This document shows, one piece after another, positions 26,448 to 30,741 of a DNA stretch of 63,650 nt; positions within the stretch are counted from its first letter, which is position 1; every line of letters starts with the position of its first letter. Origin of the DNA: Niabella drilacis (lineage in GTDB: Bacteria; Bacteroidota; Bacteroidia; Chitinophagales; Chitinophagaceae); NCBI RefSeq assembly GCF_900101395.1, contig NZ_FMZO01000012.1, forward strand, positions 1 to 63,650, in the 5' to 3' direction. Under the pieces are notes generated by a model that saw nothing but the letters and a program-made list of their open reading frames with translations, did not search any database and was not told the origin of the DNA. A program made the position numbers and the translations under genes.

Positions 26448-27635
26448 ATGAAACGTTTTTTTCAATCGGGAATTGTTGCGGGGCTGATGTGCTGCTTTTT
26501 AAACGCGGGGGCCCAAAAAGATATGCGGGCGCTGATCAGAAAGGATGAGGCGTTTGCGGCCAGCCAGTACAAACTGCTGATGAAAAACGTGCCGGCGGAT
26601 AAAATGCCCCAGAACTATGACCCTGCCAAAGATCAGCTGGTGGCTTCTGCTACCGATTGGTGGACCAGTGGTTTTTATCCCGGTACCTTATGGCTGATCT
26701 ATAAGGCAACTAAAGACCCGCAGATCCTGGCTGAAGCAAAGAAACGGCTGGTATTGGAGGAACCAATCCAATATTATACAGGGAATCATGATATCGGATT
26801 TATGATCTTTTGCAGCTTTGGCAATGCCTATGCAATCACCAAAGATCCTCGTTACAAAAAAGTGATCCTTACCGCCGCCGAAACCGCTACCAAACGGTAC
26901 AAGCCGGGAATGAAAGCGATCCAGTCATGGAATAAAAGCAAAAAATTCAATGCGCCCGTGATCATCGATAATATGATGAACCTCGAATTGCTGGAATGGG
27001 CTTCCCGTAACGGCGGCAGTAAACGACTGGCCGAAATTGCGGAGAACCATGCCAACACTACATTGAAAAATCATTTCCGCCCGGATGGCAGCAGCTATCA
27101 TGCCGTGGATTATGACACCGCCACCGGAGCCGTTCTAAAGAAGGTAACCCACCAGGGATACGCAGACGAATCGGCATGGGCACGCGGACAGGCATGGGGG
27201 CTCTATGGCTATACCATGATGTACCGCTTTACCAAAAAGCCCGAATACCTGGCGCAGGCGCATAAGATCGCTGCATTTATCCTGAATCATCCCAACCTGC
27301 CGAAGGACAAAGTTCCGTATTGGGATTTTAATGCCCCGGATATCCCCGATGCGCCGCGGGATGTATCGGCAGCAGCGGTAATGGCATCTGCCCTTTTGGA
27401 ATTAGCCCAATACAGCAATCAAAAGCAAAAAGCCGCTTATATTGCGGACGCTGCTATCATGATCCGGTCGATGTCTGCCAGGTACAAATCACAGCCGGGC
27501 GGCAGCAAAGGCTTTATCCTTACCCAAAGTGTAGGGCATTTGCCAGGAAAATCAGAAGTGAACGTATCCTTATCTTATGCCGACTATTATTATATGGAGG
27601 CCCTGGAACGGTATAAGGAGTGGATATTGAAATAA
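26448..27635 (+). CDS. GH88 unsaturated glucuronyl hydrolase
   Basis: 395 residues with a signal peptide (MKRFFQSGIVAGLMCCFLNAGAQ). The alpha6/alpha6 barrel of glycoside hydrolase family 88 is recognised by D115 in GNHDIGFMIF, D174 in IIDNMMNLELL and the later segment GYADESAWARGQAWGLYGY. The enzyme hydrates and releases the unsaturated 4,5-uronyl residue left by polysaccharide lyases, in the periplasm. It is paired head to head with the heparinase-like lyase across 106 bases, so both probably respond to one regulator. No SusC/SusD pair is in the window. Confidence 0.92.
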   Translation: MKRFFQSGIVAGLMCCFLNAGAQKDMRALIRKDEAFAASQYKLLMKNVPADKMPQNYDPAKDQLVASATDWWTSGFYPGTLWLIYKATKDPQILAEAKKRLVLEEPIQYYTGNHDIGFMIFCSFGNAYAITKDPRYKKVILTAAETATKRYKPGMKAIQSWNKSKKFNAPVIIDNMMNLELLEWASRNGGSKRLAEIAENHANTTLKNHFRPDGSSYHAVDYDTATGAVLKKVTHQGYADESAWARGQAWGLYGYTMMYRFTKKPEYLAQAHKIAAFILNHPNLPKDKVPYWDFNAPDIPDAPRDVSAAAVMASALLELAQYSNQKQKAAYIADAAIMIRSMSARYKSQPGGSKGFILTQSVGHLPGKSEVNVSLSYADYYYMEALERYKEWILK

Positions 27636-27709
27636 CTTTTTTTGCATATATTTATGTTGCTAATTCAGGTTGATCGGCTACCAGGTAATGAAAATATACC
27701 CAGCAACTA

Positions 27710-27872
27710 AGAGCCTGTTTAAATTTTATTGATAGAATTTATTATGAAGCTATTTTGGAGCGAAACAAGGAAAATTTTGCAGGCATAGTAGGCCACTATG
27801 GCGAAAAATTTAACGCAGTTGCAGCCCAAAACAGCCATAATAAAGCCATTGAATGAATTTTAAACAGGCTCT
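27710..27872. mobile_element. 163-bp palindromic MITE
   Basis: The ends are inverted repeats, AGAGCCTGTTTAAA at 27710-27723 and TTTAAACAGGCTCT at 27859-27872. The similarity continues inward: comparing the left half with the reverse complement of the right half gives matches almost to the centre (TTTATTATG, then CTATTTTGG/CTGTTTTGG, AAATTTT, CATAGT around AGGCC). The whole unit can fold into one long hairpin and has no coding capacity, as expected of a miniature inverted-repeat transposable element. TA dinucleotides flank the ends, hinting at a TA target, but a target duplication is not certain. Confidence 0.8.
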
Positions 27873-27986
27873 ACAATGCAGCGCCACTTACAAATATTAA
27901 GTTCCGCAAGTTTACAGCTGACATGAAAACACCGGGCAATACTGAAATTATCGATTTATAACTTTTAAGCGAACCTTTCAATTGGG

Positions 27987-28015
27987 TTTAAAATACTAAA
28001 AATCAGTATTTTAAA
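27987..28015. promoter_or_regulatory. Perfect 11-bp inverted repeat, candidate operator of the TAC operon
   Basis: TTTAAAATACT (27987-27997) and AGTATTTTAAA (28005-28015) are exact reverse complements around AAAAATC. It lies 59 bases before the ATG of the first gene, the expected place for binding by a dimeric XRE antitoxin such as the one encoded at 28616. It may also overlap the promoter. Binding is inferred. Confidence 0.55.
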
Positions 28016-28074
28016 ATCCTTTCTGAAATTATTTAACTTAAAAGTGAAATAGAATGTCAATAATTCAGTTATAA

Positions 28075-28611
28075 ATGAATACATTTGTGATAGGTATATG
28101 GTATGATGAAGGAAGGCTTTGCACGTTCTATACAGTTAGCTGGGTTTTAGATAATGATCCGGCACTTCCTGAAACAGACAGGTTTTTTGACAAATATGCT
28201 GTGCCCGGGCATCCACTCGAAGAAAAAGCCATGCAATTGTTCCGGCTGATAACCGAAAGCATTGGCAACAGGTATGGAGCTGTTGACGATTTTTTTGACC
28301 GGCTTGTAAATAAGGCACAGGAATTGCCGCCAAAACCCAAAAGATGGGTGGAAGAAATAAAGGACTTAGGCATTAACTTCCCGCTCAGGTTATTTTGTTA
28401 CCGGATAACTGAGCAAATCGTAGTTCTTTTTAACGGAGGCATTAAAGAATCAACAACAACCCAGGAAAGCAAAGATTTAAGTATGAAGTTTTATGAGGCC
28501 CAAACCTTTGCTAAAAAAATTGAGGAAGCCCTTCAGGCGGGGCTGATTGAAATTTCAAAAGACAAAAGATATTTACAAAACTTTGACGGAACACCCCACA
28601 TAATATTATAA
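28075..28611 (+). CDS. Putative HigB/RelE-like toxin of a TAC system
   Basis: 178 residues, cytoplasmic. Residues 101-125 read NFPLRLFCYRITEQIVVLFNGGIKE: two beta-strands resembling the RelE/HigB core pattern (RLxY-x-I-x-IVLLxGFxKK), preceded by a helical stretch (VDDFFDRLVNKAQELPPK). The N-terminal 70 residues are an unusual extension not found in small HigB toxins. RelE/HigB toxins cleave mRNA on the ribosome; the basic residues of the usual active site are only partly recognisable, so activity is not proven. It is the first of three tightly linked genes, four bases before the XRE antitoxin gene. I assign the role mainly from context plus this core; a different toxin fold is possible. Confidence 0.62.
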   Translation: MNTFVIGIWYDEGRLCTFYTVSWVLDNDPALPETDRFFDKYAVPGHPLEEKAMQLFRLITESIGNRYGAVDDFFDRLVNKAQELPPKPKRWVEEIKDLGINFPLRLFCYRITEQIVVLFNGGIKESTTTQESKDLSMKFYEAQTFAKKIEEALQAGLIEISKDKRYLQNFDGTPHIIL

Positions 28612-28615
28612 AACA

Positions 28616-29029
28616 ATGAGAAGCAAAACCGTAGATAGATTGCTAAAAAGCACGCCCAAAGATGTGGAGATCTTTGTAGATTGGTATGCCGATCTGGTTG
28701 TTCGTATTAACCAACTATTGAAAGACCAGGGCATCAACAAAAAAAAACTGGCTGAAAAGCTGGACAAGAAGCCTTCTGAAATTTCAAAATGGTTAGGCGG
28801 TGGGCACAACTTTACATTGCGTTCACTGGCAAAATTGTCGGCCGAACTGGGAACGCCGCTACTGGAAGTGCCTAAACAAAAAGCCCATATGGAATTTACA
28901 GAAGATGGATTCATATGCAGGGTGCACACTTTTGTGAGCTACACCAAGTTCAATAAAAAAGCCGGCGAGAATACCTGGCAGTTTGCGGAAAAGGCAGAAC
29001 TATATAATGAAGCTACCAATGTCGGATAA
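28616..29029 (+). CDS. XRE-type antitoxin with long C-terminal tail
   Basis: 137 residues. A helix-turn-helix of the XRE/HigA type covers residues 28-85 (VVRINQLLKDQGINKKKLAEKL, KPSEISKWLGG, TLRSLAKLSAELGTPLLEV). It should bind operator DNA and repress its operon. Beyond it a tail of about 50 residues (90-137) is rich in exposed aromatics (F94, F99, F106, Y109, F112, W121, F123); in HigA-type antitoxins of known TAC systems such a tail is a chaperone-addiction segment. The gene is four bases after the toxin gene and overlaps the SecB-like gene by 11 bases, indicating cotranslation. Confidence 0.8.
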   Translation: MRSKTVDRLLKSTPKDVEIFVDWYADLVVRINQLLKDQGINKKKLAEKLDKKPSEISKWLGGGHNFTLRSLAKLSAELGTPLLEVPKQKAHMEFTEDGFICRVHTFVSYTKFNKKAGENTWQFAEKAELYNEATNVG

Positions 29030-29501
29030 GCACCTGTTTGACCCTGAAAAAACTGTTTTTCTCGATTTCAAAATGATCAAGGGGCAGGCCGATACTCCTG
29101 AAAACTTTGACATCAGTAAAGTATTGGGCTATCAGTTAGACAATTCACTGCAATTAGGATTTAATCTTAATGACAAATTAGCCAAAGTTGATTTTTTTAT
29201 AAGCGTCAAAACTGACAGTAAAGGGAAAAACAAAAATGAGGCATCCGGCATTTTTCACCTGGTATTTATCTATCAAATTGAAAATTTAGAAGCACTTGCC
29301 ATACCAGATAAAAATAAACTTCTGAAGATAAATTCAGGATTGGCAAACGCACTTTCCTCCGTTACCTATTCCACTTCAAGGGGAATTTTATTGACAAGGC
29401 TGCAAGGAACAGCGTTCCAAAATTTTGTGTTGCCCATTATAAACCCCAATAAGTTGCTGCATAGTGAAAGAGCGGGATCAACATTTTTAGAATCGCGCTG
29501 A
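29019..29501 (+). CDS. SecB-like chaperone of the TAC operon
   Basis: 160 residues from ATG 29019. The second half follows the SecB pattern: a strand (FHLVFIYQIENLEALAI), a helical stretch where housekeeping SecB has NxLFPYARExI (here ANALSSVTYSTSRGILLTRL), then TAFQNFVLPIINPNKLL corresponding to GTFPxLxLxPVNFDALF. The first half has beta-strand segments (TVFLDFKMIKG, SLQLGFNLND, KVDFFISVKT). SecB is a cytosolic holdase; SecB-like proteins next to HigBA stabilise the antitoxin. In-frame ATGs at 28983 and 29007 are possible starts, but 29019 gives a short overlap and no odd N-terminus. This is not the housekeeping secB by context. Confidence 0.72.
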   Translation: MSDKHLFDPEKTVFLDFKMIKGQADTPENFDISKVLGYQLDNSLQLGFNLNDKLAKVDFFISVKTDSKGKNKNEASGIFHLVFIYQIENLEALAIPDKNKLLKINSGLANALSSVTYSTSRGILLTRLQGTAFQNFVLPIINPNKLLHSERAGSTFLESR

Positions 29502-29580
29502 GTATTCCTTTTGTGAGCCGATACGTTATATCCGTTTATGGCTATCCCGGGCCATGGTGCCTCATGAATCAATGTATTTT

Positions 29581-30741
29581 TTATACTAACGTATGCACCC
29601 CTTCTGCGATCACCGAAGAGAATACGCCCGGCTTGTAGCCGATCTTTGCTTCATACGCCGCGGTTACCTTTTCTGCAAAATCATCAAAGCACTCCTGTTT
29701 GATCAGCGCAATAGCGCAGCCGCCAAAGCCGGCGCCCGTCATCCTTGCCCCAATGCAATCCTTATAGGTTCTGCAAAAATCAACAATGGTATCCAGCTCT
29801 ATCCCGGATACTTCATACAGTTGCTGCAGGGAATCATGCGAAGCATACATCAATTTTCCAAATCTTTCGATATCACCGCTGGTAAGCGCATCCTTTGCTT
29901 TTTTTACCCGGTCGTTCTCTGCAATCACATGCAGGGCCCGCTTTTCCAGTACCGGATCATTCAGCAGGGCTTTGTTCTGTTCAAAGTCTTCAACACGGAT
30001 CTCTACCAGGTGCTGCACCGGAAATTTTTCCCGGAACCGCTTTAAGGCTTCCCGGCATTCGCTGAACCGCTCATTGTATTTAGACTCCACGAGTTTACGG
30101 GGTTTATTGCTGTTGATGATCGCCAGCACATAATCGCCGATCTCAAAAGGCAGGTATTCATATTCCAGCGTACCGGTATTGAGTAAAACGGCATGGGCTT
30201 CCTTCCCCATGGCTACAGCGAACTGATCCATGATGCCGCTGTTGAGCCCCATAAAATCGTTCTCTACGCTTTTGCCCAGTACCGCCAGGTCCACTTTAGA
30301 AAGTCCTCCTTCAAACAATTCATTCAATGCAAAAGCAGTCAATACCTCAATGGATGCGCTGGAAGATAACCCGGATCCGACGGGCAGGTTACCCGAAAAC
30401 AGGAAATCAAGACCGGTGATCTCTTTCCCTTTTTTCTGGAACTCATGGATCACCCCCAACGGGTAGTTGAACCATTCCGGCCCCTGTTTGCTATACCCAT
30501 CCTGGCTAAAAGCAATAGCTGCAGTTTCGGGGAAATCCAGTGCACGAAAACGGAACTGCCGGTCTTCATTTTTAGCTACCAGTAAAGTAGTGCCTAAAGA
30601 AATGGCACAGGGCATCACCTGTCCGCCGTTGTAATCAATATGCTCCCCGATCAGGTTTACCCGGCCCGGACAAAAGAAAATATGTGCCGCCGGCTTATGG
30701 TAAATTTTTTCAAATTCTTTTTGCAAATCTCCGATGGTCAT
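29581..30741 (-). CDS. galK: Galactokinase
   Basis: 386 residues, full length. Phosphorylates galactose at C1 with ATP in the cytoplasmic Leloir pathway. The GHMP kinase motifs are clear: the galactokinase signature PGRVNLIGEHIDYNGG (residues 25-40), the ATP loop PVGSGLSSSAS and the C-terminal motif GARMTGAGFGGCAIAL. Divergent from galM at 30777 across 35 bases, so both likely share control. galT and galE are not in the window. Confidence 0.96.
   Translation of the reverse strand: MTIGDLQKEFEKIYHKPAAHIFFCPGRVNLIGEHIDYNGGQVMPCAISLGTTLLVAKNEDRQFRFRALDFPETAAIAFSQDGYSKQGPEWFNYPLGVIHEFQKKGKEITGLDFLFSGNLPVGSGLSSSASIEVLTAFALNELFEGGLSKVDLAVLGKSVENDFMGLNSGIMDQFAVAMGKEAHAVLLNTGTLEYEYLPFEIGDYVLAIINSNKPRKLVESKYNERFSECREALKRFREKFPVQHLVEIRVEDFEQNKALLNDPVLEKRALHVIAENDRVKKAKDALTSGDIERFGKLMYASHDSLQQLYEVSGIELDTIVDFCRTYKDCIGARMTGAGFGGCAIALIKQECFDDFAEKVTAAYEAKIGYKPGVFSSVIAEGVHTLV

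Follow-up and report, generated by a model that had tools for sequence, protein, structure and literature searches.

Toxin-antitoxin-chaperone (TAC) modules, in which a SecB-like chaperone controls the antitoxin, are known with HigBA, MqsRA and HicAB pairs (PMC5105189), and a survey of SecB genes found 52 out of 688 to be associated with toxin-antitoxin (TA) genes (PMC4257090). In Mycobacterium tuberculosis, the chaperone-addiction (ChAD) region of the antitoxin HigA1 holds both the chaperone site and a ClpX degron (PMC8165232), and the toxicity of HigB-TAC was abolished by the K95A substitution and inhibited by R77A (PMC9098466). Without its chaperone, the CmdTAC antitoxin CmdA undergoes degradation by ClpP (PMC11618068). 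CmdTAC and MqsRAC protect Escherichia coli from phages (PMC9519451, PMC11618068), and the trigger of higBAC from E. coli C496 is the major tail protein of phage lambda (told in PMC11980606, citing Mets et al. 2024). The TACs tested in these papers cover a few toxin families and model systems.

Organization and genomic setting of the operon

The operon considered here lies on the forward (+) strand of the window, i.e. the whole stretch of 63 650 nucleotides that was analysed. A first-pass annotation of the window had noticed three tightly packed genes and interpreted them as a candidate TAC; the observation was confirmed and the interpretation is supported by the present analysis. The toxin gene T (28075..28611, 178 aa) is followed after a gap of 4 bases by the antitoxin gene A (28616..29029, 137 aa), which overlaps by 11 bases the gene C (29019..29501, 160 aa) coding for a SecB-like chaperone. 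All three reading frames are open. The A-C overlap is a family trait: of the 76 three-gene rows in the non-redundant set, to which the window belongs, 26 have exactly 11 bases. C might also begin further upstream, at an in-frame ATG at 29007. The XRE helix-turn-helix (HTH) of the middle gene, annotated at residues 28-85, was placed by Pfam at residues 32-84 (HTH_3, E 7.6e-8). It is the only Pfam match of the three proteins, T and C having none. Searches of NCBIfam and PHROGs gave nothing beyond chance for T or C, and PDB searches with the single sequences of T and C and with profiles of C, T and the related toxin branch T2 returned chance matches only, with no SecB or RelE chain among them.

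The PADLOC library, in contrast, has models for all three proteins: T (PDC-M64B, E 2.2e-45), A (PDC-M64C, E 4e-32) and C (PDC-M64C, E 6.8e-24) match models belonging to PDC-M64, a candidate defence system that carries no name and for which the library gives no description. Neither the name PDC-M64 nor a description of this TAC family was found in the mostly open-access literature searched. The annotation had called a Bacteroidota version of TAC with an enlarged toxin little described; the family is in fact large and, rather than being an isolated oddity, is listed without a name in PADLOC. By gene layout and homology, the locus is an operon of toxin, antitoxin and SecB-like gene, and the proposed toxin-antitoxin-SecB order is upheld in content and order by the homologues. 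The operon is, as judged from its anatomy, a TAC whose toxin and chaperone fall outside the named families.

Relatives are numerous. The scan of named genomes yielded 68 loci, nearly all hosts with names being Bacteroidota. Among 395 genomes searched within the class, 38 match the T profile, counting weak matches of T2 type; among 395 searched within the phylum, 83 match the C profile, including C copies without T and A. T2 is a second branch of the T family that was reached through weak matches; the profiles of T1, the branch of the window toxin, and T2 align with an E-value of 3.5e-11 and a probability of 97%. Two further T-A-C sets are present in the same genome, one on contig C25 (L040) and another, more distantly related, on contig C16 (L044). 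No T relative was found in phage and plasmid collections by tblastn at E 0.01. Among viral sequences, a first scan gave none and a second, alignment-based scan gave one match, a viral contig on which the operon immediately precedes genes read as terminase genes. For the comparisons below, 104 rows were kept from 130 toxin-antitoxin rows after dropping toxin pieces shorter than 120 aa and rows sharing more than 90% identity with one already retained. The retained set still contains fragments of interrupted toxins (e.g. L014, L028, L041), and no antitoxin was paired automatically with L029 or L179, nor with one piece of L175 and one of L034. L029, unpaired in the row set, has both the tail and the SecB, and the fusion L034 lies outside the 104 rows. 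The loci were collected with this toxin or its chaperone as query and the sample is not random.

The operon is located in a stretch (27636..29578) between genes at 26448-27635 and 29581-30741 that is missing in genus-mates. The flanking genes adjoin in all five genus-mates compared, i.e. the nearest five of the 16 with a flanking gene, with 90-375 bases between them versus 1944 in the window. The G+C content is 38% in the stretch versus 48% in the window. Since the stretch is missing from the five genus-mates, the operon looks recently gained. The stretch also contains a 163-base repeat (27710-27872) present in at least 40 copies in the genome. The genes on either side are presumably those of a glycoside hydrolase and a galactokinase. 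By reading of its neighbours, the window copy stands outside any defence island and has no recognised defence gene beside it.

The locus might alternatively be a decayed or harmless copy retained as a regulator. M. tuberculosis HigB2 and HigB3 are thought possibly to be such copies, suggesting that toxins of this kind may become inactive (PMC9098466), and interrupted toxin genes do occur among the relatives of T, e.g. in L014, L034 and L123. Such a fate is nonetheless improbable for the window copy, in which all three genes are open and T retains the invariant residues of its family, and whose stretch, missing in five genus-mates, points to recent gain. The window operon is intact and a member of a widespread family.

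Upstream of T, the annotation had proposed an inverted repeat as a natural operator. The repeat is present, perfect, with 11-base arms and a 7-base loop (27987..28015), and lies 59 bases before the ATG of T; when upstream regions were shuffled by mononucleotides, not one of 515 shuffles had 11-base arms. Its role as operator is doubtful because it is missing in the ten close relatives whose upstream sequence could be used; one of them, L121, has a different 11-base repeat at another place. Most of these ten have instead the motif ACTTWWAAGT shortly before T. This motif, derived from the relatives first and then counted, occurs exactly within 150 nt upstream in 41/103 loci versus 0.34% of dinucleotide shuffles, and with at most one mismatch in 59/103 loci versus 7.7% of shuffles. 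It is not universal, being exact in 2/23 two-gene T1 rows. The inverted repeat is probably no conserved operator, and the near-palindrome ACTTAAAAGT (28036..28045), which is operator-like and found 39 bases before the start of T, is the better operator candidate.

Remote relationships of the toxin and the chaperone

Toxins of the T family are about 155-195 aa long. The 100-residue lead of T, described in the annotation as unusual, turned out to be common to 30 aligned toxins of the family. A HigB/RelE-like nature of T is suggested by weak profile similarity and by residue conservation, and found no support in Pfam. Among 30 T relatives, none matched a model of the RelE clan and one had a weak HepT-like match (E 0.0082); the gathering score of PF05973 was reached by neither T nor these relatives. 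Compared with a profile of 24 Gp49 (PF05973) toxins, from 24 of 30 retrieved loci, the T profile gave an E-value of 7e-5 and a probability of 63% when built from 30 sequences, and 5.6e-4 and 30% when built from 83. The T2 profile gave 1.9e-4 and 48%. Reversed Gp49 scored 0.33 and 0.17, and the best of 60 shuffles 0.017 and 0.016. As a yardstick taken from two accepted families, Gp49 itself was compared to PF05015 HigB, and the similarity was of like strength, with an E-value of 2.5e-4 (43%), or 6e-4 (29%) without the wrong-frame row L196. Two other toxin families were tried and rejected for T1 and T2, namely PF05015 HigB (E 0.16-0.17) and MqsR (E 0.36-0.54, hhalign with seven MqsR sequences).

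Three residues of T, R105 (codon 28387-28389), G121 and K124 (codon 28444-28446), are invariant in 83/83 non-redundant T1 rows and have counterparts in 19/19 named T2 rows, a count of 19 names in which three tandem copies share one name. The arginine and the lysine are 19 residues apart in both branches. In the Gp49 alignment, R105 falls on the Gp49 arginine and K124 on the first lysine of the GFxKKTQKTP-like motif. The lead is thus probably nothing more than the N-terminal half that Gp49/HigB toxins ordinarily have, its loops being longer. By reading, R105 and K124 would correspond to R77 and K95 of M. tuberculosis HigB-TAC, a match made outside the alignment from the residue numbers given in PMC9098466. 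K99, also required in HigB-TAC, has by eye no conserved counterpart in T.

The operon could still be a TAC whose toxin is not a RelE-type RNase, with another growth-blocking fold or activity like that of CmdT, an mRNA ADP-ribosyltransferase. The 0/30 RelE-clan matches agree with this reading, as does a Gp49 similarity of just E 7e-5 to 5.6e-4 (probability 30-63%), and unrelated toxins do occur in TACs. We regard it as unlikely, given that T1 and T2 separately match Gp49 in the same register and match neither reversed or shuffled Gp49 nor PF05015 or MqsR, and that the arginine and lysine are invariant at equal spacing. A CmdT-like toxin in particular was rejected, none of the PADLOC models of CmdTAC (PD-T4-9) matching T. 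The preferred assignment is that T remotely resembles Gp49-type HigB, as suggested by a weak profile similarity and conserved residues rather than by fold.

The third gene had been annotated as SecB-like, which was borne out by the family profile (probability 93-94% and E 2-4e-7 against SecB). With L010 excluded and seven solitary members included, the C-family profile aligned to 18 proteobacterial and Bacteroidota SecBs over 135 columns with an E-value of 2.1e-7 and a probability of 93.6% (hhalign), the best of 59 column shuffles reaching E 0.017; L252, a SecB row in a wrong frame with stops, was excluded from this set. This similarity was accepted once Bacteroidota SecBs had been added and some sequences removed in turn. 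The E-value was 3.5e-6 without the intermediate L249, 2.0e-4 (probability 47%, 97 columns) when L244, L246 and L251, which are SecBs found beside family toxins, were also removed, and 2.6e-4 when L050 and L051 were additionally left out. Against seven proteobacterial SecBs only, the similarity was weak (E 0.01-0.1). The C family is thus homologous to SecB by profile over most of its length, and C is assigned with good, if not final, confidence to a divergent branch of SecB-like proteins.

Among 33 C relatives, L010 alone passed the SecB model PF02556 (E 1.6e-9) and L011 was marginal (0.052); the window C did not reach the gathering score, and four solitary members of the chaperone family had no match to the Pfam SecB model. 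The PADLOC model PDLC04763 was matched by 32/33 chaperone relatives. In L010, a Pfam SecB occupies the C slot of the family operon. The profile of the other chaperones does not recover this canonical SecB, so that L010 reflects an exchange of the C gene and not a close relative. Overall, profile searches against the RelE/HigB, XRE and SecB families found the XRE domain with Pfam and the SecB and Gp49 similarities by profile-profile comparison, the Pfam RelE and SecB models missing T and C.

Joint presence of the antitoxin tail and the chaperone

The tail of the window antitoxin (residues 87-137, 28874..29026) ends with ...EATNVG and is a putative chaperone-addiction sequence. It had been described as aromatic-rich and about 50 residues long; 8 of its 51 residues are aromatic, and tails are aromatic-enriched throughout the 76 three-gene rows, F/W/Y making up 9.9% of the tail residues versus 5.7% of those in the HTH part, and no tail lacking such a residue. 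When the tail is counted as the antitoxin residues past the HTH end, its length is 30-143 aa in 76/76 rows with C and 2-21 aa in 28/28 rows without C, and the two ranges are disjoint. The separation is seen in T1 (60 rows with C, 30-93 aa; 23 without, 2-20 aa) as well as in T2 (16 rows with C, 52-143 aa; five without, 9-21 aa). Under chaperone addiction, a tail is expected only with a chaperone, and a ChAD-like extension was counted exactly when the chaperone is present (76/76 with, 0/28 without). This rule is the best-supported result of the analysis.

The association was also examined along the toxin phylogeny. The tree of the 83 T1 rows has seven state changes, at least five of which are forced by well-supported branches. 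In independent pairs taken on well-supported branches, the tail tracks the chaperone in 5/5 cases for T1 and 3/3 for T2. Taken singly, neither set is large enough for the sign test, with p 0.06 for T1 and p 0.25 for T2; the pooled 8/8 gives a two-sided p of 0.008. At least 480 bases are available 3' of A in every two-gene row. A same-strand frame of 100-230 aa occupies the position of C in 3/28 of these rows and none is SecB-like by eye, so that an overlooked divergent chaperone is unlikely. Of four additional genus-mates carrying T, three could be assessed and all follow the rule: in L209 and L210 a short A stands without C, and in L211 a long A is accompanied by C. The fourth, L208, has a short A and a contig that ends 59 bases after it, and was left out of the judged set. 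In L034, HTH, tail and SecB-like part form a single open frame; this fusion may belong to a decaying locus since the adjoining toxin gene is interrupted.

These counts bear on another explanation, a plain two-gene TA pair with a co-transcribed SecB-like export chaperone that acts separately and without control of the antitoxin. Chaperones of the same family do occur without T or A nearby, in 7/30 loci, as would be expected of an independent function. This explanation is nevertheless very improbable in view of the joint change of tail and chaperone in 8/8 independent pairs, the disjoint tail lengths and the exact 11-base A-C overlap in 26/76 rows.

The extreme C-terminus of the antitoxins has a further regularity. 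A final [VAILM][AGS] was found in 54/76 antitoxins with C, 6/28 without C, 0/104 toxins and 1/76 chaperones; the pattern was defined after seeing the sequences, and kinship is not accounted for in the Fisher p of 1e-5. The KAS ends of the genus's three two-gene antitoxins fit the pattern as well. We take these ends to resemble ssrA-type ClpX degrons.

Proposed mechanism and comparison with known systems

With high probability, in our judgement, the window operon is a tripartite TAC module working as follows. T would be a Gp49/HigB-like member of the RelE superfamily that most likely acts as a ribosome-dependent mRNA endonuclease and is kept inactive by the XRE antitoxin A, which would also repress the operon at ACTTAAAAGT. 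The 51-residue tail would destabilise A and carry the binding site of C, and the extreme C-terminus of A probably contains a degron of the ClpX type. C would bind the tail and shield A, as a tetramer if it resembles SecB. Diversion of C, most likely by a structural protein that the infecting phage produces in large amounts, would lead to degradation of A and release of T, and the infected cell would stop translation. For the window operon, toxicity, RNase activity, antitoxin degradation and the phage trigger are what we infer.

The neighbours of related loci differ between the two gene arrangements. Either hsdM or hsdR lies within 5 kb in 9/44 named three-gene loci and 0/23 two-gene loci, counts that are lower bounds because some contigs are short; the other 35/44 named TAC loci have neither gene within this distance. 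In the non-redundant set, the figures are 8/29 versus 0/17 (one-sided p 0.016, kinship ignored). In L113, L118, L126, L147 and L167, the hsdR frame starts at most 78 bases after the end of C. PADLOC searches of the three-gene flanks (92 ORFs, 23 loci) gave up to 11 matches to one type I methyltransferase model, and those of the two-gene flanks (68 ORFs, 17 loci) gave no type I restriction model among the 25 of 30 families listed.

A broader proposal is put forward tentatively, as a possibility somewhat short of even. Tail and chaperone together may form a detachable sensor, gained or lost at least eight times on one TA core, that makes of it a tripwire for viral proteins. The tail would combine a client site for SecB with a ClpX degron at the C-terminus, and the chaperone would be exchangeable, with a canonical SecB as one possible substitute. 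The three-gene form, not the two-gene form, would settle in type I restriction operons and serve them as a fail-safe, in many cases from a position immediately ahead of hsdR. Since the three-gene form is linked to restriction genes, a role in defence can be tested directly. The family is widespread, is found mostly in Bacteroidota, and has a toxin of its own and a chaperone from a divergent branch; its related toxins exist with and without the tail-chaperone pair and therefore provide matched natural pairs for probing chaperone addiction.

The HigBA-SecB TAC of M. tuberculosis (Rv1955-Rv1957) shares with the window operon the T-A-C order, a SecB-like chaperone and an antitoxin extension (ChAD) containing aromatic residues. 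Its toxin is termed Gp49-like in PMC9098466, and its antitoxin HigA1 ends with ...VEVA, as implied by a primer in PMC5105189, resembling the C-termini of the window-family antitoxins. In contrast, toxins of the window family are outside all Pfam models, measure about 155-195 aa and, by reading, conserve the counterparts of R77 and K95 alone. The family further differs by its divergent SecB branch, by hosts that are nearly all Bacteroidota and by a common two-gene sister form without tail and chaperone. CmdTAC of E. coli (PD-T4-9) is likewise a T-A-C operon with a SecB-like chaperone, and one of its PADLOC chaperone models matches 2/33 relatives of C; its toxin, however, is an ADP-ribosyltransferase and no PD-T4-9 model fits the window T, A or C. 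The higBAC and MqsRAC modules of E. coli are anti-phage TACs on which the phage acts via the chaperone, through the lambda tail protein in the case of higBAC, according to the papers cited above, whereas the window T has no profile similarity to MqsR or PF05015 HigB. Also among the closest systems is the PADLOC candidate PDC-M64, whose models the window T, A and C match and to which the TAC reading is a new addition.

Chaperone exchange and solitary chaperones

The chaperone position of the toxin-antitoxin-chaperone operon is occupied by different proteins among the relatives of the window module. Behind a family toxin and its antitoxin, the third gene codes for a canonical Pfam SecB at three loci (L010, L246 and L251), the toxin being assigned to the family by profile in L010 and by eye in the two others. 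As judged from sequence, the SecB-like chaperone gene is swapped for canonical SecB at these loci. The window-type chaperone family is also found as a lone gene, with neither toxin nor antitoxin close by, at seven loci (L103, L104, L105, L107, L109, L110 and L112); no Pfam SecB match was found in the four of these solitary chaperones that were scanned. Even so, they are perhaps a housekeeping chaperone of the lineage that carries them.

Genomic surroundings

The window operon adjoins a 163-base element with inverted ends (27710-27872), present in at least 40 genome copies, its own included, at 98-100% identity (40 of 75 candidates scored). This element is a MITE-like repeat. On a viral contig, a three-gene set (L254:2793-4186) lies directly upstream of genes that, by eye, look like terminase subunits, and perhaps serves phage-borne superinfection exclusion. 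The toxins of L114, whose contig is assigned to an Acholeplasmataceae MAG, and of the Bacteroidales locus L115 are both 79% identical to the window toxin; the placement of L114 is probably a binning error.

Fused, tandem and HEPN-containing arrangements

A single ORF (L034:1739-2626), adjoining an interrupted toxin gene, joins the antitoxin helix-turn-helix and tail to a SecB-like domain. Three tandem two-gene copies of a toxin-antitoxin pair from T2, the second branch of the toxin family, occupy L045:950-4004. The L243 and L250 operons combine genes for a HEPN protein (PF05168), for an uncharacterized protein whose last residues are QSAA or YALAA, and for a Pfam SecB. They possibly represent a further type of TAC, one in which the end of the antitoxin is ssrA-like.
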